Origin: Singulisphaera sp. GP187
GTDB taxonomy: Bacteria > Planctomycetota > Phycisphaerae > Phycisphaerales > SM1A02
Assembly: GCA_945871445.1 (NCBI GenBank)
Contig: CAMBWI010000005.1
Location: forward strand, 1 to 63,732
Direction: 5' to 3'
Length of the DNA stretch: 63,732 nt
In this document: piece after piece, positions 14,425-50,445 of the stretch
Layout: each line of letters starts with the position of its first letter
Position numbering within the stretch: position 1 is the stretch's first letter
The notes under the pieces: model-generated
Told to the model about the DNA's origin: nothing
Seen by the model: only the letters and a program-made list of their open reading frames with translations
Database searches by the model: none
Translations under genes and position numbers: made by a program

Positions 14425-14781
14425 GCTACGGAATTGCATAAGTTGGCAGTCGTAGAAACGCGGAAGTGAGCAGCCACGGAATTACAAAGGTGGGCAGCCG
14501 TGGAAAGTTCTCTCGGGGCTCAAACAGTCCTCGGCGACCGACACGATCCGATTTGTGAAATTTTTTTCGCAAGTGTCGTCGGCCGCCTGCGGAACTCGCC
14601 CGAGAGAACTTTCCAGCGGCTGGACACGCAAGTAGAAGTGCGACTGAAATAGCCGCGGAATCAAGGCCACAGAATCGCAAAAATGGGCAGTCGCTGGGTA
14701 CGCAAGTGCAAGTGCGACAGATTGGAAATACTGTGAAGCGAGAATTTGATTCGCCAACGGTGGCTGCGATTTCGAGAACGC
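14425..14781. repeat. Modular intergenic repeat, locus 1 (A-H-A-R)
   Basis: The 361-bp gap between convergent genes (DUF3179 ending 14420, coxC-like ending 14782) is filled by diverged A units (signatures CGGAATTGCATAAGT and ACGCAAGTAGAAGTGCGAC), one hairpin cassette H (14498-14616) and the end module R (about 14692-14770, signature GCGAGAATTTGATTCGCCA). The same modules occur at 42531-43190 and, inverted, at 49944-50445. No coding sequence is supported here. Confidence 0.85.
14498..14616 (+). repeat. Hairpin cassette H, copy 1
   Basis: A 119-bp unit with a perfect 17-bp inverted repeat near its ends: TGGAAAGTTCTCTCGGG (14501-14517) and its complement at 14599-14615. The flanking CAGCCG and CGGCTG extend the pairing. 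The inner arms are conserved in all five copies; about 30 central bases differ between loci. Confidence 0.85.
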
Positions 14782-15318
14782 TCAGCGCGATCCAAACCAC
14801 AGCGTGGCATACAGCGCAACCCAAATGACATCGAGTGAATGCCAATACATACCACACAGCACAATCCCATTATGACGCGCAGCGCCATAAAAGCCTTCAG
14901 TTGCACGACGCGCAACAAATCCCAGTGCAAATAATCCACCGATGATGTGCAAAACATGCAGTGCAGTCAAGACGTAAAAAGTCCATGCGTACAAGTTCTC
15001 GTCGATGCTGACATTGTTCATCCACATTGACCACCAAGCTTCGCCTTGCAGCAGAACGAAGAGAAAACCGAGCCAATATGTCACGCTTGCAAAGCGCGCG
15101 CAACCCTTCGTGTCATCGCGCCTCGCTCTCACGAGACATTGATGCAGTGTCACGCTCGATGCAAAGAGAACAATGGTGCTGACGATCAATGTGTGTGGTA
15201 AGCCAGCTTCTGTTGAGGGGCGCCACGGCGCTTGCATATGCGGGTTTAGTCGAACAACGATGTACCCCAAAATCGTTGACACAAAGACCATGCCCACAAC
15301 GACAATGAAAATCCACAT
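14782..15318 (-). CDS. Cytochrome c oxidase subunit III-like protein (second copy)
   Basis: At least 178 residues of a heme-copper oxidase subunit III protein, with five helices and the motif GEAWW...LTALHVLHIIGGL. It is the last gene of the oxidase operon and a paralogue of coxC at 15879. Coding-like sequence continues upstream in frame (FTLPQRDPFDDPIQSERAAR then IGMWIF) to a stop at 15457-15459 without an ATG, GTG or TTG, so the real start may be an unusual codon (CTG 15402 or ATT 15399, read on the minus strand) or the frame may be disturbed. ATG 15318 is the first standard start. It supports oxidase assembly or stability rather than catalysis. Confidence 0.82.
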   Translation of the reverse strand: MWIFIVVVGMVFVSTILGYIVVRLNPHMQAPWRPSTEAGLPHTLIVSTIVLFASSVTLHQCLVRARRDDTKGCARFASVTYWLGFLFVLLQGEAWWSMWMNNVSIDENLYAWTFYVLTALHVLHIIGGLFALGFVARRATEGFYGAARHNGIVLCGMYWHSLDVIWVALYATLWFGSR

Positions 15319-15437
15319 TCCAATGCGAGCAGCTCGCTCACTCTGAATCGGATCATCAAATGGGTCTCTCTGAGGGAGAGTAAATATGCTGGCTCCAATC
15401 AGTCCGAGCGCGATGCACTCGGTACTACAGGAAAAAC

Positions 15438-15857
15438 TTACGGATTCAGTTCGGGCTTAAATCTTGCAACTGGCGCACCTGGTGCGTTCGCATCGAGTGT
15501 CTCTTGTGCAACAGGCGGATTACCTGTGTATTGAGTTGCGCGATACTGACTCGTGTCCAGAACGGAGAACGCCATCATCAAGATGACGAAAATGATGCAT
15601 CCGATAAAGACCAATAAATTGAACGGGCGATCCCAGCGCAAATGCATGAAGAAACAAGCGACGAGTGCGGCTTTAACGACTGCGATTCCAATAGCAACCC
15701 ACAAATTAAATTCACCGATGTCGATGTACCGAACAGCAACGGTTATAACGGTCAGAACTAAAAGCGCTGATGCCGTCGCAACCAAAGTTGAAACTGGGAC
15801 AAGGTGACCAACCAGAGGGTGTCCTTCGTTGGCCGTGTTTGAATGTGAATGGGTCAT
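15438..15857 (-). CDS. coxD: Cytochrome c oxidase subunit IV (CoxD/CyoD type)
   Basis: A 139-residue protein with three predicted helices and the prokaryotic COX4 pattern (LWVAIGIAVVKAALVACFFMHLRWDRPFN). It is a small accessory subunit of caa3-type oxidases. It lies between the two subunit III genes. The N-terminus is His-rich and the C-terminus is a Pro/Ala-rich extension of about 40 residues on the far side of the last helix. Confidence 0.88.
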   Translation of the reverse strand: MTHSHSNTANEGHPLVGHLVPVSTLVATASALLVLTVITVAVRYIDIGEFNLWVAIGIAVVKAALVACFFMHLRWDRPFNLLVFIGCIIFVILMMAFSVLDTSQYRATQYTGNPPVAQETLDANAPGAPVARFKPELNP

Positions 15858-15878
15858 ATGTTGTCGCCGTAAGTCAAA

Positions 15879-16859
15879 TTAATGAATGAGATAGAAAAGC
15901 GGGAAAAGAAAAATCCAAACAAGATCCACGATGTGCCAATACAAACCAACAAGATCGACAGGCGTGAAATAGTTCGGTCCGAAATCACCTCGTGTTGCGC
16001 GATAAATCAGCATTCCGATTACCACCATTCCCACAATGACGTGAAAACCGTGCAAGCCAGTCATTGCGTAATAGATTGCGAAGAACATATGAGTATTCGG
16101 CGGCATATTTGGATCTTCAAGATGCGCGGCAGGAATTTGACTCGGTATGACATCGAAGGTGACTGCTGAAGCGGAATTGACAACACCTGCACCGAGTCCA
16201 CCTGGACCTATTGACGCAGGCTTAATGACAGAAGCATCAACAGCTGGACGCGCGCCGATCATCGGGACTCCAGTTGGAGCAGAATTGACAGGAGCAGGAA
16301 CTGCTGCGGGAGCAGGAGCTGGAGCGTGGGCGAGTGCAACTGATTCTGCCTCTCCAATTGCATCGTGCGGGGGTATGTAAAAGCTAGGGCCCCAAACCAA
16401 ATTGTCGTGAATCTTGTGCGAATACTCGAAATATTTGATGACCAAGAATCCCGCAGCGCCTGCCATTGTCAACCAAAGACAAACAACTAAAGCGATGCGC
16501 TTGCCACGTTGAGCGAAGTACACGCCGAGCGCCATAGTGAGACTGGAAAGAATCAGCACGCACGTGTTGACTCCACCCATCACAGTGTCGAGATAGTGAC
16601 TGCCATAAGAGAAGACTTCTGGAAATCGACTTCTCAGAACGGCATACGCGACAAAGAGTGCACCGAAGAACAGAACTTCGGTGGCGAGAAAGAGCCACAT
16701 TCCAAGCTTTGCGCTATCGAACTGCTGAACAGGAGTTTCGAAATGATGCGCCAAGAATGGATACTTGGAGTGCTCTGCTGAACCATGTCCATGTCCATCT
16801 GCATGACCCGCATCAGCGTGACTCGAGTGTCCATCATGTGGAACACTTGCGTGACTCAT
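15879..16859 (-). CDS. coxC: Cytochrome c oxidase subunit III with large loop insertion
   Basis: A 326-residue subunit III. The N-terminus is His/Gly/Asp-rich. Helices carry family motifs ([48 protein letters not shown]). Between the N-terminal three-helix block and TGLHGFHV there is an insertion of about 80 residues (roughly 160-245) rich in Ala, Pro, Val and Gly, absent from ordinary subunit III, probably an extramembrane loop. It overlaps coxA by ATGA at 16856-16859. Confidence 0.92.
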
Positions 16860-18565
16860 GAATGACCTCGTGCTTCTGCAGCAATTGACTTTGCTTCCAA
16901 TTCCTTGTCAACGACATATCCCTGCTCCTTCTCGTCCCAGCGGAGCATTGAGAAGTCGTAACAATTACCAACCTTCGGAGGCGAACTGAAATTATCGTGC
17001 GGAGGTGGCGAAGAGCACTGCCATTCCAAACTGCGTCCGCCCCATGGATTGACTGGCGCTTTCTTGCCTCCAAGCAGACTTTGCACGAAGCAAGAGGCGC
17101 AGAGGAAGAATCCAAATGCCATGATGTATGAACCGATCGTCGAGATCACGTGATAGATCTGAAATTCTGGTTGATAGTCGTAGTAACGACGAGGCATTCC
17201 TTGACTGCCAAGCATGAACTGAGTGAAGAATGTGATATTGAATCCAACAAAGATGATGATGGATGCGATGATTGCAGTCTTCTCGTTGTACATGCGTCCA
17301 GTCATTTTCGGCCACCAATGGTGCAATCCACCGATCATTCCAATCAGCGCAGAACCCATCATGACATAGTGAAAGTGTGCGACAACGAAATATGTGTCGT
17401 GCAAGTGGACATCGGTGTTGAGTGTCGCCAAATGGATTCCAGTCAATCCACCGATTGTGAAGAGAAATAGGAACGACAGTCCGTACATCATCGGGGCAGT
17501 CAAACTGATCGTGCCCTTGTACAGCGTCATTGTCCAATTGAATGTTTTTACTGCGGATGGAATCGCCACGCTGAAAGAAATCAACGAGAAGATCGTGTTC
17601 ATTAATCCGCTCTGTCCGGAGACGAACATATGGTGTCCCCACACAATGAATGAGAACATTGCGATGGCGATCGAAGAAAATGCGATGAATCGATATCCGA
17701 AAATTTGGCGATGTGAATGAACCGAAATAATCTCGCTGATGATTCCCATTGCTGGCACAATCATGATGTACACAGCAGGATGGCTATAAAACCAGAAGAA
17801 ATGTTGATAGAGAACTGGATCGCCGCCCATTGATGGGTTGAAGATTCCGATGTTCAGTAATCGTTCGACGATCAGAAGGCAAAGAGTGATGGCGAGAACG
17901 GGAGTCGCGAGAACCTGAATGATCGCCGTGGCATACAGCGCCCACAGAAAAAGTGGCATCCGAAACCATGTCATTCCTGGCGGACGAAGTTTGTGCACTG
18001 TCACGATAAAATTCAGACCGGTGAAGATCGATGAGAATCCAAGAATGAAAACACCAGTCAGAACTGGGATCACTCCGCCTGTTGTCGTTGTTGTTGAATA
18101 CGGAGTATAAAAAGTCCATCCAGTATCGAAGCCACCCGCTGCGAGCGAATAAAGAGTAAACATCGCTCCACCAATCCAGAGATAGAACGAAAAGAGATTC
18201 AACCTTGGAAAGGCAACGTCTTTTGCGCCAAGCATAATTGGCAATACAAAGTTTCCAAGCGCGGCGGGAATACTTGGAATGATCACCAAGAAGACCATGA
18301 TTGCACCGTGCAAAGTAAAGAATTGGTTGTACATATCCGCACTCACGATCGTTTTTCCAGGCGTGAGCAGTTCCGTGCGAAGAAGAAGCGCGAAAATTCC
18401 ACCAACAAGAAACGAAGCGAGCACCGCACCCATGTACATCACACCGATGCGCTTGTGATCAAGCGTCAGCGCCCACGAACGGAATCCTTTCGTGAATGTG
18501 AGATAGTTGTCCGTACTTGCGGATGTATCAAGGGCCTCTGGTCTTGGAGAAACGATGGTTGTCAT
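16856..18565 (-). CDS. coxA: Cytochrome c oxidase subunit I (caa3 type, A-family)
   Basis: The 569-residue catalytic subunit reduces O2 and pumps protons. Ligand regions are intact: [11 protein letters not shown] for low-spin heme, [20 protein letters not shown] with the CuB His and the cross-linked Tyr, [10 protein letters not shown] with two CuB His, and [18 protein letters not shown] with both heme His. [19 protein letters not shown] carries the D-channel Asp region. SHPAVY identifies an A-type oxidase. It lies 30 bp after coxB and overlaps coxC. Confidence 0.97.
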
Positions 18566-18595
18566 AAAAAACCTCTTTAGACTTGCTTCTACTTC

Positions 18596-19744
18596 TTACT
18601 TCATTTCTGATTTGGTTTCGGTCTTCGCTGCTGTAGGTGGTAATGTTTTTGTCCAAGCACCCTTCGCGTCAAACTCTTCAATATGTTGAATCATTCCGAT
18701 AACTGAATCAACAGCTCTGTCATTCAACTGCCCCTTAAAAGTCGGCATCACATTTCCATATGGTGCGACAAGATGCTTTCCAGGGTTGTAAATCGAATCG
18801 CGGATGTAATCCTCTGGCGTTGCATATTCCTTACCCACACCGATGATGTCAGCATAACTTTTCCCATCAGTAAATCGTGCTGCGCCTGGAGTCGTCAGAC
18901 GAGTCCAAAGCCCCTGCCACGAAGGTCCAAGGCCGACAGTTCCATCGGTGGAATGGCATTGCTGGCAGCGCGCATAAATCTTAGGACCTGCCTTGAAATA
19001 CAACTCTTCGTCTGGAATTTCATCAAGCCACTGAGCCTGCTTGCCCAGCCACTGGTCAAACTCTGCTTGGGGGAGAACCAAGACTTTACGATTCATATTG
19101 GAATGACCCGTTCCGCAATACTCGGTGCAGAAAAGGTGATATCCATTCTTTTCCTCGAGTCCCGTTGGAATATCGCACTGAAACCAGAGCGTTGAATAGC
19201 GACCTGGAACGATATCCTTCTTCACTCTGAATGCTGGGATGAAGCAACAGTGAAGCACATCATTGGATCGCATGATCAACTTCACAGGCCGACCGCTTGG
19301 AACGACGAGATTGTCGGACTGCGCGCCATTTGGATACTTGAATTGCCATCCCCATTTGAATGATGTGACATTGACATCAAAAGAATTCTTCGGCGGAGTG
19401 ATCAAGTCGACATATCCAGTGAAGCCAAAGAAGAAAATCACAATACAGATGATCAGCGGAATCACGGACCAAGATAATTCGAGAACTGTGTGATGGGTCA
19501 TCCCATCAGTACGAATACGTGTTCCAGGCTTGGCTCGATACTTCACTACGAACCAAACCATCATTGCAACCACGACCACAAAGAAGAAATAGCAAATGTA
19601 ATTGATGATGTTGAACATCAAGTCAATATTGGCCGCTTGCACCGATGCTCCAATTGGCAACCAAAAGTCGGCTGGAGTAGCGACTGGCGGTGCAGCTTGC
19701 GCGCTGGCATTTGTGATGAGTATTGATATCAAAGTGGAAAGCAT
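18596..19744 (-). CDS. coxB: Cytochrome c oxidase subunit II fused to cytochrome c
   Basis: A 382-residue caa3-type subunit II. It has a signal peptide (to about residue 18), two membrane helices (about 43-65 and 88-110), and a cupredoxin domain with the CuA site (LHCCFIPAFRVKKD plus CTEYCGTGHSNM). The C-terminal class I cytochrome c domain has CQQCH (about 256-260) and a distal Met in GNVMPTFKG. It passes electrons from ACIII into CoxA. Most CuA proteins have HSF or HSL where this has HCC; the two extra cysteines are odd, but the canonical ligands are all present. Confidence 0.96.
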   Translation of the reverse strand: MLSTLISILITNASAQAAPPVATPADFWLPIGASVQAANIDLMFNIINYICYFFFVVVVAMMVWFVVKYRAKPGTRIRTDGMTHHTVLELSWSVIPLIICIVIFFFGFTGYVDLITPPKNSFDVNVTSFKWGWQFKYPNGAQSDNLVVPSGRPVKLIMRSNDVLHCCFIPAFRVKKDIVPGRYSTLWFQCDIPTGLEEKNGYHLFCTEYCGTGHSNMNRKVLVLPQAEFDQWLGKQAQWLDEIPDEELYFKAGPKIYARCQQCHSTDGTVGLGPSWQGLWTRLTTPGAARFTDGKSYADIIGVGKEYATPEDYIRDSIYNPGKHLVAPYGNVMPTFKGQLNDRAVDSVIGMIQHIEEFDAKGAWTKTLPPTAAKTETKSEMK

Positions 19745-19754
19745 GAGGAAAATC

Positions 19755-20669
19755 CTAGGCTGCTCGAGGGGGTGATGACGGGACTTCGTTTGGCGAGAGT
19801 TTGGCGATACGAGCGCTACGGCGAAACATAAAGATGAGTCCGGCGGCGATAACCACGACCGTTATCGCCCCACCAATTTTCATCAGGCGCATTGCAAAGA
19901 CCACATAGCCCTGACTTGAAGGGTCATATTGATGACACCAAAGAATAAATCGGTCGAGTGGCGTTCCAATTTTTCCTTCGCCCGCTTCAACGATCGCCAT
20001 GCGCATCGTTGTTGGATCAAACTTTACACCATAGAGATATCGAACGATGCGACCATCTGACGCGATCATTGCGAGCATTGCAGGATGGGAATATTCGCCA
20101 CTAGGAAGTTCCTTATATTGGAAGCCAACTGATTCTGCAATCGCAGCAGGAGCTTTTGCACCTTCCGCAGTCGCTGGAGCAGTGAGGAATCGAACGCCAC
20201 GATCAGAACCTGCGCGCGCATACTCCGCGAGATATCCCAACTTCTTTGCATGAGCCAGTTCGCTGTTTTCTTTTGGGTTGACGGAAATCGACACAAGATC
20301 GAATTCCTTTCCAATCGAAAGTTCGACTTTTGCAAGCGACCGGATGGCTTCGTTGAGCACAAGCGTGCAAAGCATCGGGCATTTGTAATAGCCCATATGC
20401 AGCATGATTGGCTTCCCAGAAGCCAAGATTGCGCCAAGCGTAATTTCTTTGCCGTCATCATCAATCAACACAGTGTTCAGAGGAATCGTGTCGCCGAGAT
20501 GTTCGAGAATGTCGACTCCCTCCATTTCACTCGCAATTCCATCTGCAGGAATCGGTCCTTCACCAGGAGCGAAAGGTGCAATCGATGCTTGCGCCAATGC
20601 GCTGCTTGTCATGCTGACTACAACCACGCTTGTGGTGATCAGCGAAAGAATGGACGCTTTCAAATTCAC
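19755..20669 (-). CDS. SCO1/SenC copper chaperone
   Basis: A 304-residue thioredoxin-fold protein that delivers copper to the CuA site of CoxB. It has a signal peptide (about 1-26), the metal-binding CxxxC in GYYKCPMLC and the conserved His in SGEYSHPAML. Unlike many SCO proteins it also has a C-terminal membrane helix (about 263-284, ITVVVIAAGLIFMF). It overlaps the upstream small gene by ATGA and precedes coxB by 10 bp. Confidence 0.92.
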   Translation of the reverse strand: MNLKASILSLITTSVVVVSMTSSALAQASIAPFAPGEGPIPADGIASEMEGVDILEHLGDTIPLNTVLIDDDGKEITLGAILASGKPIMLHMGYYKCPMLCTLVLNEAIRSLAKVELSIGKEFDLVSISVNPKENSELAHAKKLGYLAEYARAGSDRGVRFLTAPATAEGAKAPAAIAESVGFQYKELPSGEYSHPAMLAMIASDGRIVRYLYGVKFDPTTMRMAIVEAGEGKIGTPLDRFILWCHQYDPSSQGYVVFAMRLMKIGGAITVVVIAAGLIFMFRRSARIAKLSPNEVPSSPPRAA

Positions 20670-21109: not shown

Positions 21110-21126
21110 ATTTTTTTCCTTGACTA

Positions 21127-22458: not shown

Positions 22459-22462
22459 AATT

Positions 22463-25280: not shown

Positions 25281-25282
25281 GA

Positions 25283-28200: not shown

Positions 28201-28513
28201 TTGCGAGCACTGGCTGCGCAAAACCACTGAATTCCCAGACCGTGCTGTAATAAACAGGATCACCAGGAACGCGATTTGCAGCTTGACTTGCAGCAGGAAC
28301 GATCTTTGTTTCGGGCCATCGACGACATCCTGCTATTCCCAAACCTGCGAGGGCGAATGATGCACCCATCACTTTGAGAAAATTGCGCCGCTCGTTTTCG
28401 GTGGCGTGTTCAGATGCACCGTCAGGAAATTCGCGGTGCATCCAATCTCGAAACTCGCTTGAGTTTGTGAGGTCTTCAACACTCCGCCAATAGGGCTTCT
28501 TTACCGATGACAT
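25283..28513 (-). CDS. actB: ACIII subunit ActB (molybdopterin-like domain fused to ferredoxin domain)
   Basis: A 1076-residue periplasmic subunit. Its twin-arginine signal has RRNFLKV at 42-49 and a lipobox-like LGIAGC ending at Cys63, so it is folded before export by Tat; tatC is in this window. The middle is a molybdopterin-oxidoreductase-like fold (the cofactor is absent in known ActB). The C-terminal third is a ferredoxin domain with [35 protein letters not shown] and CTFC...CQQAC, fitting three 4Fe-4S and one 3Fe-4S cluster. ATG 28513 overlaps the end of actA by 13 bp. Confidence 0.95.
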
Positions 28514-29154
28514 GTCGAACAGTTCTCGCTTGGGTTGATGTGAAAGAGCTTGACAAGTGATTCGCGTTCTTCGCGCGTCAACTCGACGCGTTGGTCCCAA
28601 CCCATGTTGGTGATTTGCGATACAGGGCGAAGACGATCTGTTGGTTCGCGGTGGCAATCAAGACACCATCCCATTGCCAGCGGTGAATAGCGATACACAA
28701 CTTCCATTTGATCAATACGCCCGTGACATTCAACGCAACCCACTCCGCGATTGACATGTGCGCTGTGATTGAAATACGAATAGTCAGGAAGTTTGTGAAC
28801 TTTGATCCACTCAACTGGCAAACCAGTTTCGTATGAACTTCTAATTTTTTCCAACTTGGGACTGTCTCGCTGAATCTGCGTATGACAATTCATACAAGTT
28901 TGCGTTGCGGGCACAGCTGCAAACGCTGCGCTTTCGACTGTGTTGTGGCAATAGCGACAATCCATTCCAAGTTGGCCGACATGCAGCGCGTGGCTATATG
29001 GAACTGGTTGCGTCGGCTGATAGCCGGCATCGATCGTTTTGGGACTGAATCCGTATGCGACAACGAAGGCTGCATATAAAGGAAGGATCGCACCAGTCAC
29101 CAAGATGAATGGCAAGATCGCATTGGTCCAACGGGGGAAGAGGAATCGGCTCAT
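28501..29154 (-). CDS. actA: ACIII subunit ActA (pentaheme cytochrome c)
   Basis: A 217-residue protein with one N-terminal membrane helix (about 14-35) and five heme motifs: CRYCH, CMNCH, CVECH, CLDCH and CSTCH. This is the expected count for ActA of Alternative Complex III. It is the first gene of the respiratory operon; 142 bp separate it from the divergent gene at 29297, so the main promoter should lie there, but I see no clear -10/-35 pair. Confidence 0.95.
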   Translation of the reverse strand: MSRFLFPRWTNAILPFILVTGAILPLYAAFVVAYGFSPKTIDAGYQPTQPVPYSHALHVGQLGMDCRYCHNTVESAAFAAVPATQTCMNCHTQIQRDSPKLEKIRSSYETGLPVEWIKVHKLPDYSYFNHSAHVNRGVGCVECHGRIDQMEVVYRYSPLAMGWCLDCHREPTDRLRPVSQITNMGWDQRVELTREERESLVKLFHINPSENCSTCHR

Positions 29155-29296
29155 GTGTGTTTGGCTGGCTTCGTCGTGGTTGTTCGGGCTACTTCGTGCT
29201 TTTTTTCACAAACTATGTCGAATACTCAATATTAGGAGCGATGGAGTCTTGGCGCAAGGATTCACAAAGATTGAAAATGGGATAAATTCCATATAA

Positions 29297-29761
29297 GTGA
29301 ATGACTCTCAAAAAATGAAGATTGCTTCGGCAAGCGCACGGACAAACTGTGGGGATTATCACGCAACTTTGTCGCAAATTGCTCTGAGAGCTCATCAAAC
29401 AATTTTGCCAAAGTTCGATCATCCTGCTCTGACCGAAGCATTGAATAATCGAGAATTACTCAGTTTTACATCGACTCCCGAAGGTGTTGCATTTCCACAT
29501 GCCATTCACGATGAGATCAATCCAAGTGCTTCTGGAATAGTGATCATGACGCTGTTTCAGCCAATTCTTTGGGGTTCAAACCAAGTCCAAATTGTCGTGG
29601 GGTTGTTTGGATCGACATCCGAACCGTGGCGACATGTCCGATCTTTAGCAAGAATCGCACGCGTGTGTTCGCAAGCCAATATAAGACAAGAACTTATAGC
29701 TTGTGGCGATGACTTGTCACTGTTGAATTTATTCGACAAGGAGTGCAATAACAATGCCTGA
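29297..29761 (+). CDS. PTS EIIA-like (fructose/nitrogen type) regulatory protein
   Basis: A 154-residue PTS EIIA type-2 domain with the phosphorylatable His in GVAFPHAIHDE (about 74). It is likely a sensor rather than a sugar transporter part, because no EIIB/EIIC is nearby and it heads an operon with a PII-like protein and two antiporter-like proteins. GTG 29297 has TAAATT 8 nt upstream; ATG 29315 is possible. It overlaps the next gene by 8 bp. Confidence 0.78.
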   Translation: MNDSQKMKIASASARTNCGDYHATLSQIALRAHQTILPKFDHPALTEALNNRELLSFTSTPEGVAFPHAIHDEINPSASGIVIMTLFQPILWGSNQVQIVVGLFGSTSEPWRHVRSLARIARVCSQANIRQELIACGDDLSLLNLFDKECNNNA

Positions 29762-41894: not shown

Positions 41895-41938
41895 ACTTTT
41901 TAGGCTTATTCATTTATCATTCATACACGGAGAACCCG

Positions 41939-42514
41939 ATGACAGAAACACCTCCAACTTTTACCACCGCAGTCCAAAAAACAGAGTGGCCAAAAATCCT
42001 TGGGATCGTTTCAATTATCTTCGGCGCATTTGGTTTGATGACTGGCTTCTGTGGCGTGATTTCATCGGTGGCTTTAGGCCCCATCAGCGAAGCCATGCAA
42101 AAGTTTGTGCCCGCGAACCAGAACGCCGCCTCTCCTGCAGACACATTTCAAGCGATGGAAAAGCTCCAAGGTTGGATGGTGGCAAATGCCGTGCTAACCG
42201 CTTTGATTGCAATTCTCTTGATTGTGGGTGGTGCGAAACTGATCAAGCGGCAAGCGCAGTGCCGAATGATTCTTCTCTATTGGGCAACGCTGAAGATTTT
42301 GCTTGGGGTTTTTGGAACGGCCCTGGGATTTCTTTCGTTCCAAGATCAGATGCAAGCCATGCAAAAAAGTAACCCTCTAAACCCGATGATGACGTCTACC
42401 TTCGGACTCATCAGCATGGGCTTTGCATTTCTTTGGGCGATTGCCGGAGCGGTTTTTATAATCATTTGGTTCAAGAGAGACAAAATTCGTAGCGAAGTTT
42501 CGAGCTGGATGTGA
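41939..42514 (+). CDS. Membrane protein with four helices, unknown function
   Basis: A 191-residue protein with predicted helices near 20-45, 78-100, 112-135 and 150-178 and a short polar periplasmic segment after helix 1 (EAMQKFVPANQNAASPADTF). No family is recognised. ATG 41939 has GGAG at 41929-41932. It is the last + strand gene before the second modular repeat array and is convergent with umuC. Confidence 0.7.
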   Translation: MTETPPTFTTAVQKTEWPKILGIVSIIFGAFGLMTGFCGVISSVALGPISEAMQKFVPANQNAASPADTFQAMEKLQGWMVANAVLTALIAILLIVGGAKLIKRQAQCRMILLYWATLKILLGVFGTALGFLSFQDQMQAMQKSNPLNPMMTSTFGLISMGFAFLWAIAGAVFIIIWFKRDKIRSEVSSWM

Positions 42515-42593
42515 TGTATTGCGCTGGCATCGATCACGGACACAGCCGTGGTTACAGCCTCGGATACAGCCACGGAATTGCATAAGTAGGCAG

Positions 42594-42712
42594 CCGTGGA
42601 AAGTCCTCTCGGGGCTCAGACAGTCCTCGGCGACCGACACGATCCGATTTATAAAATTTTGCTTGCAAGTGCCGTCGGCCGCCTGCGGAACTCGCCCGAG
42701 AGAACTTTCCAG
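42594..42712 (+). repeat. Hairpin cassette H, copy 2
   Basis: A 119-bp unit like copy 1, with AAAGTCCTCTCGGG pairing to CCCGAGAGAACTTT with one mismatch. The central 30 bases (ATTTATAAAATTTTGCTTGC) differ from locus 1 but are identical to copy 3. Confidence 0.85.
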
Positions 42713-42844
42713 CGGCTGGACACGCAAGCAGAAGTTCGATTGATGCAGCCACGGATACAGCCACGGAATTGCATAAGTGAGCAGCGGCTGGACACGCAAG
42801 CAGAAGTTCGATTGATGCAGCCTCGGAATTGCATAAGTAGGCAG

Positions 42845-42963
42845 CCGTGAAAAGTCCTCTCGGGGCTCAGACAGTCCTCGGCGACCGACACGATCCGATT
42901 TATAAAATTTTGCTTGCAAGTGCCGTCGGCCGCCTGCGGAACTCGCCCGAGAGAACTTTCCAG
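42845..42963 (+). repeat. Hairpin cassette H, copy 3
   Basis: A 119-bp unit nearly identical to copy 2 (differing at CCGTGAAAAG versus CCGTGGAAAG). It starts immediately after CAG and ends immediately before CGGCTG, the same insertion point as every other copy. Confidence 0.85.
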
Positions 42964-43198
42964 CGGCTGAATACGCAAGCAGAAGTTCGATTGATGCAGC
43001 CACGGATACAGCCACGGAATCGAATAAGTGGGTAGCGGCTGAATACGCAAGCAGAAGTTCGATTGCTACAGCCACGGATGAAGCCACGGAATTGTATAAG
43101 TGAGCAGCGGCTGGGAACGCAAGTGAACGTGCGACGGATCGGAAAAGCGATTATGCGAGAAGATGATTCGCCAACATTGGCAGTGGACTGACTCTGCG

Positions 43199-44512
43199 TC
43201 ATTTCACTTTCAAAAGATCTGCCCAGCGCGTGGTGTAACAAGGTGTGCGCATCTTCGCTTTCATTTCCCACGCAGGAACTTCATTCGAACTTACGTTCCC
43301 GCACGCACCAACCTTCAGAGCGTTCCTTCCCATACGCGCGTTGATCGCATCCATAACTTTCATGACCTTCGCATCTTGCGCGTGTTGTTGTTGGTTATCA
43401 AAGAGCGAAAACTGAATTGATGCGCTCGGACGAATATCCGAAAGAATCACACCAGCCTTCTTGTATTCAATGCCCTCTCGAAAAATCTGCTCCAACACGC
43501 GATTGGCGGCGGCGATCAATCTGACCGTGGACGCCGTGCCCATATCCATCTTGATCATGCCCGAGTTGTAATACTGCGGCGCATCTTTGAAGCGATTGGT
43601 CTGAACAAAGACGCTCATTGTGTGGCAAATGCCGTCTTGGCGACGAAGTTTCTCGCACGCACGCGTGACGTAATTTGCCACAGCTTCTTGCAATTCTGCA
43701 AGCGTGTACACCGGCCGCCCAAATGATTTCGAACTGACAATTTGCTTGCGATCTTCTTGGATCATCTCAAGCGCCAAGCATGATTGACCGCGCAACTCCA
43801 TAACAATGCGCCGCCCAACAATCGTGAGCAACTTTTGCATTGCGTCTAAATCGGCATCCCGAAATTGTTTGGCAGTGTGCACGCCAACAGAATTCAATTT
43901 GGCCGCACTGCGTGCGCCGATCCCCCATACATCCGCCACAGGCAACACATTCAGAACCTCGTCTTGTGTTGCACGGCTACACATATTCAGCACGCCATTG
44001 TTTCTATTATTTTTCTTTGCTACGCGGTTTGCCACCTTCGCCAAAACTTTTGTTGGCCCAATTCCAATTGCCGTTGGAATACCGGTATCGCGTCGTACCA
44101 CTCGACGAATCTCGCGTGCGTATTCGTTCAAATCCCGCTCACCAAAACCATCGAGTGACAAAAACGCTTCATCAATGCTGTACACCTCCATCTCTGGTGT
44201 GAACTGCGCCAAAGTGGACATCATTCGCGCTGAAAGATCGCCATAGAGCGCATAGTTCGACGAATACACCCGCACACGATTGCGCTGAACGATGTCCTTG
44301 ATCAAATGCAGTGGATCACCCATCTTGATACCCAATGCTTTTGCCTCGTCGCTGCGCGAAACAGCACATCCGTCGTTGTTGCTCAACACAATAACAGGCT
44401 GATTGTTCAGCGACGGATTAAAGACGCGTTCGCACGAGCAATAAAAACTATTGCCATCTACAAGAGCAAACACAAGAGGTGTTGCGGAAGAAGGAATGCG
44501 CGACGTGATCAT
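43199..44512 (-). CDS. umuC: Y-family DNA polymerase V catalytic subunit UmuC
   Basis: A 437-residue translesion polymerase. Visible motifs are FALVDGNSFYCSCERVFNP (first metal Asp and steric-gate region), VYSIDEAFLSL (the Asp-Glu catalytic pair) and the helix-hairpin-helix region VWGIGARSAAKLNSVGV. The UmuC-specific C-terminal domain is present. The start at ATG 44512 overlaps the umuD stop (ATGA), the classical umuDC coupling. It is the distal gene of a serine hydrolase-umuD-umuC run. Confidence 0.95.
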   Translation of the reverse strand: MITSRIPSSATPLVFALVDGNSFYCSCERVFNPSLNNQPVIVLSNNDGCAVSRSDEAKALGIKMGDPLHLIKDIVQRNRVRVYSSNYALYGDLSARMMSTLAQFTPEMEVYSIDEAFLSLDGFGERDLNEYAREIRRVVRRDTGIPTAIGIGPTKVLAKVANRVAKKNNRNNGVLNMCSRATQDEVLNVLPVADVWGIGARSAAKLNSVGVHTAKQFRDADLDAMQKLLTIVGRRIVMELRGQSCLALEMIQEDRKQIVSSKSFGRPVYTLAELQEAVANYVTRACEKLRRQDGICHTMSVFVQTNRFKDAPQYYNSGMIKMDMGTASTVRLIAAANRVLEQIFREGIEYKKAGVILSDIRPSASIQFSLFDNQQQHAQDAKVMKVMDAINARMGRNALKVGACGNVSSNEVPAWEMKAKMRTPCYTTRWADLLKVK

Positions 44513-44937
44513 TTGAGACTGTGGATCACATTCGTGCAAACACCTACAACCTCGAACTGCATTCCTTCCACGATCACGATGTCCTGATATGCGGGATTTT
44601 CCGCCTTCAAAGTGATTTTCGAATTGCGACAGATGTAACGCTTGACCGTAAATTCTCCGTTGACCACTGCAAGCACAATCGATTTGTTGCGCGGCTCTTT
44701 CGATCGGTCGACAATCAATAAGTCATCGGGATAAATGCCAACGCCAATCATTGAATCGCCAGCAACGCGCACGAAAAATGTCGCAGATGGTTTGTCGATG
44801 AGATATTCGTTCAGATCAAGTTTCTTCTCTATATAGTCATCCGCAGGACTTGGAAAACCACACGAGACTGCACAGCCAAAAAATGGAAGGCGCACGCTGG
44901 GCTTGATCGCAGATTTTTTCTTTGTCGAACTTGGCAC
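44509..44937 (-). CDS. umuD: UmuD, self-cleaving subunit of DNA polymerase V
   Basis: A 142-residue S24 peptidase-fold protein. The RecA-stimulated self-cleavage site is Cys26-Gly27 (AVSCGFPSP), the nucleophile is Ser62 in GDSMIG and the general base is Lys99 in EFTVKRY. After cleavage, UmuD' dimers bind UmuC for error-prone repair. Only 6 bp separate it from the upstream serine hydrolase gene, and no LexA-type palindrome is visible in that gap, so SOS control, if any, must act from further upstream or inside that gene. Confidence 0.95.
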   Translation of the reverse strand: MPSSTKKKSAIKPSVRLPFFGCAVSCGFPSPADDYIEKKLDLNEYLIDKPSATFFVRVAGDSMIGVGIYPDDLLIVDRSKEPRNKSIVLAVVNGEFTVKRYICRNSKITLKAENPAYQDIVIVEGMQFEVVGVCTNVIHSLK

Positions 44938-44943
44938 TTTGTA

Positions 44944-46086
44944 TTACTTGAATCTTATCGCCGACCCCTTCGAAAACACATCGATCGCCGCACCACAAGC
45001 TTCATCGCACGCTTTCGCCGCAGCGTCGCCGCCTTGATTGCATGCGGCAAGCACAGCAAAGCCTTTTTCGGGCGAGAGCCAAGCAACGCAATGCCACAAC
45101 GTGTTTGATCCTGAGTGCGTCAAGACCTTACCCCCCCACCCGCGCTGGGCGGTCAACCATCCGAGTGCTTCAAACGGTTCAATATCACCGCGTGCGTGAA
45201 GATGTGAGAGTTCGTCAGCAACTCCAGCAAGTTCTGCAGGCGGCTTTGCGCCAAGATGAAACGCGATGAACTTCGCCCACTCTCCAACTGGCATATGAAG
45301 CGTGCCAGCTGGTGCGATCGCGGTTGGATTATCCATATCGCGGGGCGTTGCATCTTCGGTATGTCCACTTGGCGAGTTTGGATCTTTCTTCGAAGGAATT
45401 CCAAATCCGAAGTCTTTGATTGTCAACGGCACAAGCACACGCTCCGCAAGCAGCGATTCGTAATCTTTTCCACTCGCAATCTCGATCATGCGCCCAACAA
45501 TGGCATAACCCTGATTGGAATACGCGAATGTGCCACGAACTTGTGCCGTGGCGTTCGAAAGAATGCTGTGCACAAATGCAGTGCGGCAATCTCTCGGCGG
45601 ATCAGTGCATGCGAAAGCTGTTTTCCATACTTCAGGGGGAGGCGCAGATGGCGCACCGCTGCGATGACGCAGTAGTTCCTCGATCGTCACACTTTTCCAC
45701 TCGGCATGCATAGCAGGAACATCACTGCCGAGTAACTCTCCAATGGTGCTTGACCACTTCAATTTTCCATCCGAAACAAGCGCCGCGCAAAGCGTGGCAG
45801 TGAAAGCTTTCGTGCATGATCCAAGGTGCATTCGGTCGGCGACGGTGATCAAATCGCTTTTTCCTTGCTGGCGAATGCCCGCGACTGCGATCGACTCGAC
45901 GCCACTTTTTGTGACGACCGCAACAACCAATCCAGGGATTTTCTTTCGCGCCAAGATTCCTGACACCAAGTATTCGAGTTCTGATTGCTCTGCACTGGCA
46001 GCTTGGGGCGAGACGGACAGCATTGGTGACACTGCGGCTCCGCTGATTGACCAAATAAAAAACATCATGAATGCCATATGCAACAT
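44944..46086 (-). CDS. Secreted serine hydrolase (class C beta-lactamase/DD-peptidase family)
   Basis: A 380-residue penicillin-binding-protein-fold hydrolase with a signal peptide (about 1-31). Catalytic motifs are SCTK (SxxK), YSNQGYA (YxN) and HSGSN replacing KTG. Such proteins include esterases, D-aminopeptidases and beta-lactamase relatives; the HSG triad is common in the esterase-like members, so antibiotic resistance should not be assumed. ATG 46086 is supported by TACGAT 6 nt upstream; a GTG at 46122 is the alternative. It heads the umuDC transcript. Confidence 0.88.
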   Translation of the reverse strand: MLHMAFMMFFIWSISGAAVSPMLSVSPQAASAEQSELEYLVSGILARKKIPGLVVAVVTKSGVESIAVAGIRQQGKSDLITVADRMHLGSCTKAFTATLCAALVSDGKLKWSSTIGELLGSDVPAMHAEWKSVTIEELLRHRSGAPSAPPPEVWKTAFACTDPPRDCRTAFVHSILSNATAQVRGTFAYSNQGYAIVGRMIEIASGKDYESLLAERVLVPLTIKDFGFGIPSKKDPNSPSGHTEDATPRDMDNPTAIAPAGTLHMPVGEWAKFIAFHLGAKPPAELAGVADELSHLHARGDIEPFEALGWLTAQRGWGGKVLTHSGSNTLWHCVAWLSPEKGFAVLAACNQGGDAAAKACDEACGAAIDVFSKGSAIRFK

Positions 46087-46092
46087 AGGAGC

Positions 46093-46098
46093 ATCGTA
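46093..46098 (-). promoter_or_regulatory. -10-like box TACGAT, serine hydrolase-umuDC
   Basis: TACGAT on the minus strand ends 6 nt before ATG 46086, giving the leaderless arrangement seen elsewhere in the window. No Shine-Dalgarno and no recognisable LexA box are present. Confidence 0.4.
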
Positions 46099-46183
46099 TG
46101 ACAGAGTTGTTCGTACATACACCCGATGAATACCTCGAAAGAATCAAAGACAAATGAAATGGGATGAGGTGCGCGATGATTCG

Positions 46184-46660
46184 TCAGCGTTCAATGATTG
46201 CGCTATCCGCGCTTCGCAGTTCTTCGTAAAGCGTCGCCGCATCAGGCACCATGCAAACTCGCTCGCGCGTTGCGATGTTTGAAAAAATTCGGCTGACACG
46301 ATGCAGAACTTGAATGTGTTCTGTGATCTTGTCAGGCGGCGAAGCGAGTAGCACGATCAAGCGAACTGGCTTGCGATCGATTGCGCCAAATTCGATCGGC
46401 ACAGATGGGCGACCAATTGCAATAGTAGGACGCAGAATGCTCGTACATTTTCCGTGAGGTATTGCCAAGCCTTCGCCAATTCCCGTTGATCTCTGTTGTT
46501 CACGTTCCCACACGGACTTCTTGAAAACATCAGGATCAGTCACCACACCGATACTTGCTAGCGCATCGACGAGTTCTTCAAGCGCGCCACGACGATCGTT
46601 CGCAATCAGCGGAACACGAATCGCTTTTAGATCGAGGATGTCTGTGATGGAAAAGTTCAT
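46184..46660 (-). CDS. ptsN: PTS EIIA-Ntr-like protein PtsN
   Basis: A 158-residue EIIA type-2 domain. The N-terminus MNFSITDILDLKAIRVPL matches PtsN proteins, and the phosphorylatable His is in GEGLAIPHGKCT. In other bacteria PtsN regulates potassium transport, nitrogen or envelope responses after phosphorylation by EI-Ntr and NPr, which are not in the window. ATG 46660 is preferred on family length; a TTG at 46693 overlaps the stop of the upstream ferredoxin-TPR gene, so the two are probably co-transcribed. Confidence 0.85.
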   Translation of the reverse strand: MNFSITDILDLKAIRVPLIANDRRGALEELVDALASIGVVTDPDVFKKSVWEREQQRSTGIGEGLAIPHGKCTSILRPTIAIGRPSVPIEFGAIDRKPVRLIVLLASPPDKITEHIQVLHRVSRIFSNIATRERVCMVPDAATLYEELRSADSAIIER

Positions 46661-46689
46661 GACGAATGGAAGTCGGAGGATAGCAATGT

Positions 46690-48720
46690 TCAATTGCTTG
46701 GCATACTGGATCGAATCGATTCTGCACGACTTTCGGCACTTTTCTGTTGTGGTTCATCCCCAAGTTGCCGGTAAGCCTCGCCGAGAAGATCGTAAAGTTT
46801 GGCTTCGTTTGGCGAAAGTTCGATCGCAGGTGAAAGTGTTGCGATCGCTTCTGCGGGACGCTGAAGTCGCAGTTGACCCAGTGCAATCGCAGCGCTGATA
46901 GCGACATTCTTGGGATCCCCCGAAAGAGAATCTCGTGCGATGCGAATCCCCTCTTCGACATCTTCGGTAGTGCCATGTTCGATGAGCAACATGGACAATC
47001 TTCGGATCGGTAGCGTCGAACCTGTTTGACGATTTGCGGCATCGCGCGAGATTGCGATTGCGTCTGCGAGACGATTCTCTTGCAACATCAGGCCAACTTG
47101 GTCTTCGATGATTGTGATCCATGTCGGATACGTAGCGACAACCGAGCGAAACCACTCGACTGATTTCTGATCTTGTTGTTGCGCATACAGAACACGCGCG
47201 AGGACTACCGCAATCCATTCCTGCGGATTTTCATCCCACGCTTGCCGCAGTATCGCTTCGCATTGCTGGAACTCTCCCAGAACTGCATGGAGCCAAACAA
47301 TTCGCGCAAGAACTCTTTCGTTCCCAGGAGCGAAGAGTGCCAAACCTCCAGAATCGATCGAGCGCGTAAGCGAATACCATTTCAGCCCATCTTGCGCAGC
47401 GGATTTTATCTCGGGCGTTCCCTTTGGAGGGGTGCGAGAAAAGACTGCGGACTCGGGCAACTGAACGAGCAGATCTTTGCGATACGCCATCCACCCGCTG
47501 AAATTGACTGCGAAATTGTCAGCAAGACCAAGCGTCAGACATCCCGTGATTGCGAGCCATGCAAATCCAAGTGGCTGAATACGTTTTTGACGAACGAGAT
47601 TCGTGCGATGAAATCCCGTGGGGAATCGCAAAAGAATGTTCCAAGATTTCCACGCCATAAATGCGAAGCATGCTGCGATTCCTGAAGCGAAAAGAAGTGG
47701 GACTGTTGCCCTCGCCACACTATCTCCAAATGGAAAATAGACAGAATAAAAAGCAAACAACGCTGTTGCCAAGAGTGCGAATTCGCCCGTCCAAGAAAGA
47801 TCCCACTTCTTGACTGCGGTGGGAGCTTGAGGAATTCCAACTGCTGGCTTCCCAAATCCAAATGAAAGAGCTTCTTTAGGACAAACCGAAACACAATCCG
47901 TGCATTTCATACAACCTGGATCAACCACCATTCCATAAAGAGCAACTTCTTCATGCACGCGAACATTTGAAGTGCAGACAGCTGTGCAGTGCCCGCATCC
48001 TTCGCACGCATCTGAAACGCGAATGCGCCCGATTGCCAATTCATCAACTGGAGCAAAGACGCCTCCATACGGACAGGCATATGTGCAATATCCTTTTTGC
48101 CCAAGAAACCAGACAGTCATAAATCCGCAGACCAAGAGAAATGGAATCGCGATCATCAATCCAGGAAAAGTCGACCAATATTGCGTGGTTGTCATATTCC
48201 ACGAGAGAGACATAGGCAGAAGATCTGGCTGTGCAATTGGCGCGATTGCGAATCGATAGACCAAAGGCCAAACGAACATATATGCAGCGAGTGCAACGGG
48301 AATCCAGCGTAGGAGTCGCGAGCGAAATGCTTTGGGACGAATTCCGCTCTTGTGCATCAACGAACCACAAAAATCTTGCAGCATCATGATGTGGCAACCC
48401 CATCCGCAAAACCAACGACCCAAGATTGCGGTTGAAAGAATTGCGACAGCGAAGAAAATGAACCCCACCGTGATCGCGCCATGCTTGATTGTCTCCATCG
48501 ATTCGCTTGGCTCGATTGGTGCAAGAGTGACGCCCATTGCAAGCCACTGAACAACGTGGACGATCATCAATAATTGAACAATGATCAGAATCGTGAAACG
48601 CTTCACGGTCATTCGCGACTTACGAATCGGTTGATTCGCAGGGATGGAGCAAACTCGTGAATTTGCAAGAATCGGAAGCGAGACAGGTTCTTGGGACATC
48701 GGTGCAATCATAACCCTCAT
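46690..48720 (-). CDS. Polyferredoxin membrane protein fused to TPR repeats
   Basis: A 676-residue protein. The N-terminal half is NapH/NosR/CcoG-like: several helices, cysteines in GRWFCGWGCHIMM and GYCTYACPYG, then two 4Fe-4S motifs CEGCGHCTAVC and CMKCTDCVSVCPKE. After a further helix (about 385-410) the C-terminal 250 residues are helical TPR-type repeats with alternating small and large residues (for example QERLADAIAISRDAANRQ-like pairs). A redox core plus protein-interaction tail suggests an electron-transfer or cofactor-assembly role. ATGs at 48711 and 48699 are alternative starts. Confidence 0.85.
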   Translation of the reverse strand: MRVMIAPMSQEPVSLPILANSRVCSIPANQPIRKSRMTVKRFTILIIVQLLMIVHVVQWLAMGVTLAPIEPSESMETIKHGAITVGFIFFAVAILSTAILGRWFCGWGCHIMMLQDFCGSLMHKSGIRPKAFRSRLLRWIPVALAAYMFVWPLVYRFAIAPIAQPDLLPMSLSWNMTTTQYWSTFPGLMIAIPFLLVCGFMTVWFLGQKGYCTYACPYGGVFAPVDELAIGRIRVSDACEGCGHCTAVCTSNVRVHEEVALYGMVVDPGCMKCTDCVSVCPKEALSFGFGKPAVGIPQAPTAVKKWDLSWTGEFALLATALFAFYSVYFPFGDSVARATVPLLFASGIAACFAFMAWKSWNILLRFPTGFHRTNLVRQKRIQPLGFAWLAITGCLTLGLADNFAVNFSGWMAYRKDLLVQLPESAVFSRTPPKGTPEIKSAAQDGLKWYSLTRSIDSGGLALFAPGNERVLARIVWLHAVLGEFQQCEAILRQAWDENPQEWIAVVLARVLYAQQQDQKSVEWFRSVVATYPTWITIIEDQVGLMLQENRLADAIAISRDAANRQTGSTLPIRRLSMLLIEHGTTEDVEEGIRIARDSLSGDPKNVAISAAIALGQLRLQRPAEAIATLSPAIELSPNEAKLYDLLGEAYRQLGDEPQQKSAESRAESIRSSMPSN

Positions 48721-48753
48721 TCGTGACTCATCTTCATATACTTGACCTTCTCA

Positions 48754-49695
48754 ATGGCGCGGGATTACTACGAAGTTCTGGGAATTACACGAACGGCAAC
48801 AGCTGACGAGATTCGAAAAGCTCATCGCAAACTTGCAAAAGAGTTTCATCCCGACAAAAATAAATCGCCGGAGGCTCCGAAGCGTTTTTCAGAATTGCAA
48901 GAGGCGTATGACATACTTTCAGATTCTGCAAAGCGAGCGCAATATGATCAATTCGGACGTGCTGGTGGTAGTGCGAGTCCATTTGGAGGTCGAGGTGGTC
49001 GCAGCCAAACTGGCGGCGGACAAACTGGCGGTTCTTGGCAGAATGTGAATCCAGAAGACCTTGAAGAAATGATGGGAGGACTTGGTGGCATTGGAGATTT
49101 CTTCCGCGGTGGAGGAACGCAGCGCGGTCGTTCAGGTCGCGTGGCAGCACAAGCTGGACAGAATATAGAAATCGAAGTGACAATCGATTTTATGACTGCT
49201 GCCGTTGGCGGCACTCGCAATATTTCTATTCGAGATGCTCAAGGGAAAAATTCTGCGATCGATGTGCGCATTCCAGCGGGGATCGCCAGCGGCGGATCAA
49301 TGCGAATTGCAGGCAAGGGTCATGAAGGATCTGGGGGCGGACCGCCGGGAGATCTGATGCTTATGATTCGAGTCGCACCGCACTCTTGGTTTTATCGTGA
49401 TGGAATTGATGTTTCGATCGATGTGCCAATTACGATTGTTGAAGCGGCGCTTGGGACTTCGATTGATGTCCCACTTCTGAAGGGATCCGTCAAGTTGAAG
49501 GTTCCTGCGGGAACGCCAAGCGGAAAAAAACTCCGCGTGACCGGAAAGGGAATCGCTCCCGCCAACAAAACTGCAGGCGACTTTTATGCAGTCATCCAAA
49601 TTATTGCGCCAACTGATCTTGATCCTGCAGATTCGGAGGCGCTGAAAAAAATCGGCGGCAAGTTGCCAAACCCACGAGAAAATCGCTGGGGTTGA
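48754..49695 (+). CDS. DnaJ-family co-chaperone (CbpA type)
   Basis: A 313-residue class II J-protein. The J-domain (1-70) has HPD in EFHPDKNKS. A Gly-rich linker follows (about 70-115). The zinc-finger domain of DnaJ is absent, and the C-terminal beta domains (VTIDFMTAAVGGTRNISI..., then RVAPHSWFYRDGIDVSIDVPI) match CbpA, which stimulates DnaK ATPase. TATACT lies 11 nt before ATG 48754. It is divergent from the ferredoxin-TPR gene. Confidence 0.92.
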   Translation: MARDYYEVLGITRTATADEIRKAHRKLAKEFHPDKNKSPEAPKRFSELQEAYDILSDSAKRAQYDQFGRAGGSASPFGGRGGRSQTGGGQTGGSWQNVNPEDLEEMMGGLGGIGDFFRGGGTQRGRSGRVAAQAGQNIEIEVTIDFMTAAVGGTRNISIRDAQGKNSAIDVRIPAGIASGGSMRIAGKGHEGSGGGPPGDLMLMIRVAPHSWFYRDGIDVSIDVPITIVEAALGTSIDVPLLKGSVKLKVPAGTPSGKKLRVTGKGIAPANKTAGDFYAVIQIIAPTDLDPADSEALKKIGGKLPNPRENRWG

Positions 49696-49702
49696 AATAT
49701 GC

Positions 49703-49897
49703 TCAAAAGTGGTTCGTGCAGATTTTTCGCAGCGGACTGATTCGCCCTCGGACTCAAACATGCATGGACTCAAAAGTGGTTCGTGCAGATTTTTCGCAGC
49801 GGACTGATTCGCCCCCGGACTCAAACATGCATGGACTCAAAAGTGGTTCGTGCAGATTTTTCGCAGCGGACTGATTCGCCCCCGGACTCAAACATGC
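49703..49897. repeat. 67-bp tandem repeat, three copies
   Basis: Near-perfect 67-bp units begin at TCAAAAGTGG 49703, 49770 and 49837 and differ only by CCCTCGG versus CCCCCGG in the first. Each contains GCAGCGGACTGATTCG. This sequence reappears in inverted orientation at about 49940-49965 (CAAATCAGTCCACTGC), so the last copy can pair with the end of the R module. The array begins 7 bp after the dnaJ stop. Confidence 0.9.
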
Positions 49898-50032
49898 TGC
49901 GCCGAGCTGCGCAGACTTGCTCGGCTTGCAAACTCGCCGGGGTTCAAATCAGTCCACTGCCATCGATGGCGAATCAAATTCTCGCTCAACGGTGTTTCCG
50001 ATTTGTCGCACTTCTGTATGCGTGCCCAGCCG

Positions 50033-50152
50033 TTGGAAAGTTCTCTCAAAGCGAGTTCCGCAGGCGGCCGACTGAACTTGCAATCGAACTTCGAACTATC
50101 GGATCGTGTCGGTCGCCGAGGACTGTCTGAGCCCCGAGAGGACTTTCCACGG
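50033..50152 (-). repeat. Hairpin cassette H, copy 4
   Basis: A 120-bp unit on the minus strand. The outer arm near R reads TTCTCTCAAAGCGAG instead of TTCTCTCGGGCGAG, weakening the terminal pairing. The centre (AGTTCGAAGTTCGATTGCAA) differs from loci 1 and 2. Confidence 0.82.
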
Positions 50153-50224
50153 CTGCCCATTTATGCGATTCTGTGGCTGCTTCGGTGGCTGTGTCAGTCG
50201 CACTTCAACTTGCGTGCCCAGCCG

Positions 50225-50343
50225 TTGGAAAGTTCTCTCGGGCGAGTTCCGCAGGCGGCCGACTGAACTTGCAATCGAACTTCGAACTATCGGATCGTGT
50301 CGGTCGCCGAGGACTGTCTGAGCCCCGAGAGGACTTTCCACGG
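50225..50343 (-). repeat. Hairpin cassette H, copy 5
   Basis: A 119-bp unit on the minus strand, otherwise identical to copy 4 through the arms and centre. The two copies and their A segment form a direct repeat of about 190 bp. Confidence 0.85.
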
Positions 50344-50445
50344 CTGCCCATTTATGCGATTCTGTGGCTGCATCCGCGGATGCATCCGCGGCTGCATCCG
50401 CGGCTGCATCCGCGGCAGCATCCGTCTCTGGCATTCTGCCAAACT

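Follow-up and report, generated by a model that had tools for sequence, protein, structure and literature searches.

A family of long hairpin repeats with a nearly invariant internal loop, placed preferentially between convergent genes in some Planctomycetota

Imperfect palindromes located between bacterial genes are known in several forms. Among these, ERIC/IRU and Correia/NEMIS repeats measure about 100-170 bp and may be similar to miniature inverted-repeat transposable elements (MITEs). The attC sites of integrons, imperfect hairpins as well, are found near gene 3′ ends and combine conserved unpaired parts with free stems and the boxes RYYYAAC/GTTRRRY. Repetitive extragenic palindromes (REPs) are 20-40 nt in length (PMC3733652) and prefer gene ends, convergent gaps included (PMC1525189, PMC3733652); GTAG repeats were reported in Planctomycetes (PMC3733652), and the enterobacterial RU repeats are treated in PMC2759123. 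We analyzed a 63,732-nt window (the whole stretch under study, positions 1 to 63,732 of contig CAMBWI010000005.1) from Singulisphaera sp. GP187, in which three repeat clusters have their parts in common: an imperfect hairpin of about 120 nt (H), which is the core of the clusters, and its satellites, A and R. Sequence comparison within the window reproduced both the positions of these parts (14425-14781, 42531-43190 and 49944-50445) and their order, as given in the initial annotation, which had been made from the sequence alone.

In this hairpin, an asymmetric internal loop, with 5′ GCTCARACA on one side facing 5′ AACTCGC on the other, separates the outer stem from the inner one. Its copy at 14.5 kb folds at −72.2 kcal/mol (z −8.0; reverse strand z −7.5), well past what chance would give, and folding is weaker in the two further copies folded (z −2.9 and z −0.9). 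Like REPs and bacterial interspersed mosaic elements (BIMEs), H is a high-copy extragenic palindrome which forms mosaic clusters and prefers gene ends. It is, however, about 120 nt long rather than 20-40 nt, its end tags are inconsistent (GTAG in 3/43 and CGTC in 6/43 H copies, within 14 nt of either end on either strand), one internal loop sits within differing stems, and nine genomes of the genus lack Y1_Tnp, the mark of REP-associated tyrosine transposases (RAYTs). Thus, the hairpins work like REPs, yet are not classed as REPs, because their length, tags and transposase do not agree with that class; a RAYT-driven REP is rejected on account of 0/9 genus genomes with Y1_Tnp. ERIC/IRU and Correia/NEMIS repeats resemble H in being intergenic imperfect palindromes, but H is marked by a 3′-end bias and a fixed internal loop; we know of no sequence common to H and these families, none having been searched for. 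The attC sites share with H an imperfect fold, a position near gene 3′ ends and conserved unpaired parts, but H does not reside in cassettes, lies mostly between convergent genes, and its loop strands GCTCARACA/AACTCGC do not fit RYYYAAC/GTTRRRY. With Rho-independent terminators H shares a GC-rich hairpin after stop codons, but it has no U-tract, is about 120 nt long and patchy, and relatives lack it at corresponding gene pairs.

The same loop is found in H, in a second hairpin of the window, and in hairpins of the relative G015, while the stems differ. The second hairpin (H′; 49865-49966, plus strand), about 100 nt in length, combines other stems with an identical internal loop, and folds at −42.5 kcal/mol (z −3.4; other strand −53.5, z −5.5). 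One G015 hairpin carries the loop variant CTCCGGCA, and visual inspection of G015 and one H subfamily revealed an outer stem swapped on both sides with the loop kept. In 43 aligned H copies, which we chose from 101 distinct ones found by BLAST and not by motif, CTCARACA is present in 42 (one has GTCAGACA) and AACTCG in 41 (two have AACTTG). A loop-pattern search of 392 Planctomycetota genomes yielded 46 matches in the GP187 genome, 18 in G205, 4 in G310, and no more than 3 in all others; since a reversed-pattern control reached up to 4, G310 is distinguished by its stems rather than by its count. Both G205 and G310 belong to families other than that of GP187. Long hairpins with other stems, kept if below an energy cut-off, surround all four G310 matches and 9 of the 10 G205 matches that were examined out of 18, the tenth being cut by a contig end. 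A class-wide search of 397 genomes returned 79 matches in G011, 46 in G000, 7 in G010, 6 in G015, 2 in G004 and 1 in G019; G164 has one loop-bearing hairpin, and the G010 hairpins possess yet another stem.

To compare the stems, 146 hairpin records (overlapping loci included) were clustered after an energy cut-off, with the strongest member as representative, yielding 13 stem families if both arms are compared and 7 if similarity of either arm suffices for merging. For random members, an arm pairs on average with its own partner at −30.8 kcal/mol and with an arm from another family at −12.3 (−30.5 and −12.8 with the strongest members). Because these sets were gathered by loop and energy cut, a fair comparison calls for the bare motif from other sources: in viral sequences, such arms at the −25 cut surround 0/82 bare-motif matches, and 1/87 with a looser pattern and a −20 cut, from 80 of at least 120 stretches in either case. 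True arms (below −25) were present at 2/30 loci from the 392-genome pattern search and 5/23 from the class-wide search, with two more loci at −20 to −21, a range also reached by one viral match. When no energy cut was applied, 24/187 motif records had weaker arms; these were in part H copies between −16 and −20, in part chance matches, and in one case a chimeric H at −9.8. The measures differ in strength, close copies showing little covariation and the cross-family comparison being strong. A small unpaired motif that is kept across lineages in spite of differing arms suggests recognition by something in the cell, as a recognition site is what would be expected of an asymmetric unpaired motif recurring inside differing stems. 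Read on the opposite strand, the loop is CGAGTT/TGTYTGAG and could form tandem G-A pairs of the kink-turn type, judging from its base order.

The GP187 assembly (2.26 Mb, 96 contigs, 82% complete) contains at least 46 H matches, with 40 of 60 candidates scored, all of them H-length but for one 37-nt part, and further copies were found beside matches to A only. No H-length copy lies within a gene that scores strongly; a weakly scoring open reading frame (ORF) overlaps one cluster (L059), and a gene contains a 21-nt partial match (L079). Contigs C7, C19, C41, C46, C56 and C69 end in or near repeats, and therefore the copy number is probably underestimated. Genes were called with our own hexamer script rather than with a standard annotator; it was trained on the GP187 genome (G205, G310 and, in one analysis, G010 were trained on themselves), was supplemented with ARAGORN tRNAs, and overlooks genes in certain long gaps between codirectional genes. 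In this genome 23 of the 40 clusters are convergent, 8 codirectional and 2 divergent, and 7 are at contig ends, six of which adjoin a gene 3′ end. In 143.7 kb of the same genome, 21/122 gaps are convergent, and repeat-free convergent gaps make up 22% of intergenic length, so that 23/33 convergent sites with both neighbors called correspond to p 4e-11 against the gap background and p 1e-8 against intergenic length. The bias toward convergent ends is therefore strong. Convergent genes do flank each of the three window clusters (3/3), as had been noted, but the claim that such clusters sit only at convergent ends is wrong genome-wide. The same tendency is seen when relatives are added: in 135 clusters, from which exact duplicate flanks were removed and among which orthologous sites were kept separate, 65 are convergent, 18 codirectional and 6 divergent, while 46 are at a contig or stretch end, and 41/45 of the end clusters with one neighbor called face a gene 3′ end. 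The ten G205 matches include five convergent, one codirectional, one divergent and three at contig ends on the 3′ side (13/90 gaps convergent); G310 has two convergent hairpins in one gap, one codirectional and one divergent (7/49 gaps convergent), and both G004 hairpins are convergent (2/2).

Outside the GP187 genome the repeat is patchy, H being matched in 11/101 genomes, GP187 included. Within the genus, many copies are present in G007, G009, G011, G012 and G016, few in G001, G014 and G015, and none in 10 others; G025 and G070, outside the genus, have one short weak match each. These counts are lower bounds, with the best 8 candidates scored per genome. Database records bearing H are designated, for example, Singulisphaera sp. 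GP187, Planctomycetia, Phycisphaerales (Baikal) and uncultured bacterium. At many sites the same gene pair carries H in different species, and three gene queries across 19 genomes were used to compare filled and empty sites. At the dprA pair, five species have H in gaps of 226-391 nt, while spacers without H measure 33 nt in G007 and 31 nt in G001, and other sequence without H occupies 108 nt in G015 and 119 nt in G014; in nine species the convergent genes overlap by 4-22 nt, and G017 gave no match. The C-termini in G007 and in the H-bearing species are equal in length, so that the insertion is in the spacer. At the fucosidase pair, H is present in six species, including a G016 copy that was detected by BLAST at 85% and missed by the strict motif test, and three species without H show a 10-nt gene overlap; the neighbor is different in G001, and G009 is cut. 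The DUF1501 gene is accompanied by H in five species, with an overlap of 20-23 nt in three without H; G012 is cut by a contig end, and no convergent neighbor is clearly called in G014, G001, G013 and G003. Since H-free relatives mostly overlap or nearly abut at these three gene pairs, the clusters represent insertions that entered small spacers and were thereafter vertically kept. The partner of the DUF1501 gene in G009 is the gene that borders the L085 cluster in the GP187 genome, and it is another gene in G011, G016 and G007, a difference that would fit rearrangement at repeats.

On these grounds we favor, with a probability of about 0.56, the interpretation that H and H′ are REP-like, non-autonomous hairpin elements whose loop would be recognized by a putative factor and which would be tolerated mainly at gene 3′ ends. 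The initial annotation had proposed either a 3′-end function or a mobile family tolerating only such sites; its mobile alternative is preferred because of empty orthologous sites, the range of H abundance, from no match in some species to tens of copies in others, and the patchy occurrence of motif hairpins, although the exclusivity attached to it fails. Patchy copy number and empty sites are likewise what favors a dispersing REP-like element. H and H′ would then be members of a non-coding, hairpin-forming, REP-like repeat class of Planctomycetota. A putative trans-acting protein, operating on the hairpins either as single-stranded DNA or as RNA, might read the internal loop and also mobilize the hairpin as a non-autonomous element. 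Insertions would survive mostly in convergent spacers, because no promoter or ribosome-binding site is located there. The A, R and 12-nt units may expand beside the hairpins via local tandem duplication, recombination between copies may swap gene partners at some sites, and a hairpin, once inserted, may secondarily shield the 3′ ends of mRNAs, a role that has been proposed for REPs. Several observations weigh against this interpretation. In close H copies the inner arms beside the loop are 99% and 96% conserved, i.e. as much as the loop, with strong variation only at the apex (70%), and RNAalifold shows modest covariation, with two-sided change in 5/24 pairs and a covariation term of −0.17. 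The cross-family pairing test used hairpins gathered by loop with an energy cut applied (random members are still below −20), and stem complementarity could partly stem from mutational palindrome correction. None of the five G010 hairpins with both neighbors is convergent (0/5), with gene calls there being uncertain, and six of the 135 clusters lie between divergent genes, three of them representing one site conserved in three genomes (L057, L111, L258). Wherever gene pairs flanking H in relatives are adjacent in the GP187 sequences examined, the GP187 site carries H as well (29/29 rows, some being the same site, and the GP187 regions having mostly been picked for containing H); movement may therefore be rare. 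Neither a recent insertion nor a target-site duplication was observed; for the latter, no filled and empty pair close enough for comparison at the base level was found. PF01797 (Y1_Tnp) has no match in the GP187 genome (82% complete), in eight other genomes of the genus, or in G310, and has one copy in G205; searches with it in the genus genomes, G205 and G310 revealed no mobilizing enzyme for H.

The strongest competitor, which we nevertheless regard as rather unlikely, is a host-functional 3′-end element, i.e. a transcribed hairpin whose loop is bound by a host RNA-binding protein or nuclease and which either protects or processes 3′ ends or limits antisense read-through between convergent genes. 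A host RNA role for the hairpin is possible, and is made conceivable by persistence at sites across species together with the 3′-end bias, which is comparable in G205 (5/7 convergent with both neighbors called, versus 13/90 gaps), while the loop, nearly invariant within hairpins of differing stems, would suit a structured RNA. The same convergent pairs, however, overlap without any element in several relatives, H is unmatched in 10/18 genus relatives, divergent sites exist, T-runs are absent, and hairpin orientation at codirectional sites is only weakly biased (11 same, 7 opposite). The missing T-runs also count against the bidirectional termination that had been suggested for these gene ends: amplified ordinary intrinsic terminators would account for GC-rich hairpins between convergent genes, but a run of five or more T residues beyond the arms follows 0/49 hairpins on the sense side and 1/49 on the other. 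Terminator-like sites in the 42400-50500 region occur at chance level (12 found, 10.2 expected), the two such sites inside the 67-nt repeats described below lie outside H, and a hairpin that by eye looks like an ordinary terminator, with its T-rich tail, instead follows the tRNA. With the missing T-runs and the chance-level sites, together with relatives in which the pairs overlap without the element, a canonical terminator is rejected as a candidate, and we consider this explanation the least probable. It is also improbable, to a lesser degree, that the clusters are passive tandem or quasi-palindromic DNA, which slippage and template switching would have enlarged in convergent spacers free of constraint, without any recognition. 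Tandem growth of A, R, the 12-mers and the 67-mers would agree with such an origin, as would a chimeric H (L063) that combines two types of arm, spacer repeats similar to the neighboring gene's own end, and the equal conservation of inner stem and loop in close copies. Template switching should nevertheless erase the asymmetric loop, and the same loop recurs with other stems in distant lineages; neutral palindrome repair is likewise disfavored, because arms would stay complementary but the asymmetry would be expected to be lost.

Returning to the REP-like element, we would propose only tentatively, with the odds somewhat against it, that GCTCARACA/AACTCGC constitutes a new nucleic-acid module, a fixed loop in freely changing long stems that would be read by a dedicated putative protein, and that it defines a phylum-scale hairpin family, mobile or 3′-end regulatory, which is not RAYT-served in the genus studied. 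If the loop is a recognition module, its approximately 16 fixed bases in a defined fold provide a handle on the factor by which these repeats are spread or used, and REP-like biology would be extended to elements whose hosts have no detected Y1 transposase. With both filled and empty sites available in a single genus, the effects of large convergent-gap hairpins on termination, mRNA stability and genome rearrangement can be addressed directly.

Known families and sources were also considered. A known RNA family was rejected, as Rfam 15 returned nothing over the gathering score in the window except tRNA, and only matches below that score for cluster 3 and one G205 hairpin. No title or abstract opening was found that describes the loop motif. 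Among plasmids, a cluster had no match and a G205 hairpin had three weak ones (E 1 to 4). A viral source was rejected as well: one viral stretch has an H 20-mer without H, the strict pattern gave no match, and the bare motif is almost stemless. At least 97 stretches matched the H 20-mer, and 9 of 80 genome records (Mycobacterium, Neorhodopirellula and others) have it without H. The ends CAGCCG/CGGCTG, which might represent terminal inverted repeats of a MITE, close the hairpin; any hairpin has closing ends of this kind.

Within the window, the five H copies are 85-100% identical to the query. The A part had been described as a single unit of about 72 bp; it does recur in all clusters, but on reading consists of a left and a right half, which flank H if H is present and are joined to each other if it is absent. 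Cluster 1 (14425-14781, plus strand) is composed of A-left parts, H, an A-right part and R, and occupies nearly the entire gap separating two convergent stop codons; in its H (14500-14623, plus), one loop strand, CTCAAACA, starts at 14519, and the other, AACTCG, ends at 14598. It is bordered, by Pfam, by a DUF3179 protein on the left (13224-14420, plus) and a cytochrome c oxidase subunit III-like protein on the right (14782-15318, minus). Cluster 2 (42531-43191, plus) has two hairpins (42596-42719 and 42847-42969, both plus), complete and H-less A units, and R at its end (43106-43191, plus), between a gene without a Pfam match (41939-42514, plus) and a Y-family DNA polymerase (IMS in Pfam; 43199-44512, minus). 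The third cluster is present as annotated but starts earlier, with H′ and three 67-nt tandem repeats (49702-49902, plus), each containing the left half of H′, having been missed between dnaJ and the cluster; these are followed by R (49949-50032, minus), two H copies (50026-50150 and 50218-50341, both minus) and, at the A end, 12-nt tandem repeats of the GCATCCGCGGCT type (50361-50424). Its neighbors are DnaJ (Pfam; 48754-49695, plus) and a gene without a Pfam match (50446-51072, minus). The statement that these repeats account for every gap over 300 bp does not hold exactly, given a repeat-free convergent gap of 328 nt between a tRNA and a gene (57472-57800); region 28441-29754 was left uncalled by the hexamer caller, with missed ORFs being the probable cause.

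A few other features were observed near the clusters. In the 3′ spacers of L138, L140 and L151, a third hairpin (TGAAATGGGCAAC...GTTGCCCATTTCA) lies inside a half-H, resembling a repeat inserted in a repeat. The dprA spacers of the H-bearing species (L162-L166) contain copies, some of them repeated, of GGCTGAACT...AGTTCAGCC, which resemble the end of the neighboring gene. Beside one H cluster, about 700 nt of unexplained non-coding sequence (L060, 2526-3201; L485, 2197-2885) is 76% conserved between two species; the L060 stretch contains neither a tRNA nor an open frame of more than 115 codons, and Rfam gave no match to it over threshold. Elsewhere in the window, short 20-nt tandem repeats of the TGGGAATGACAGTCCAAG type are located at a gene end (8027-8101), and a 9-nt tandem repeat (GCAGTCGGC) is found at 56171-56321, within a gene called at 55642-56967.

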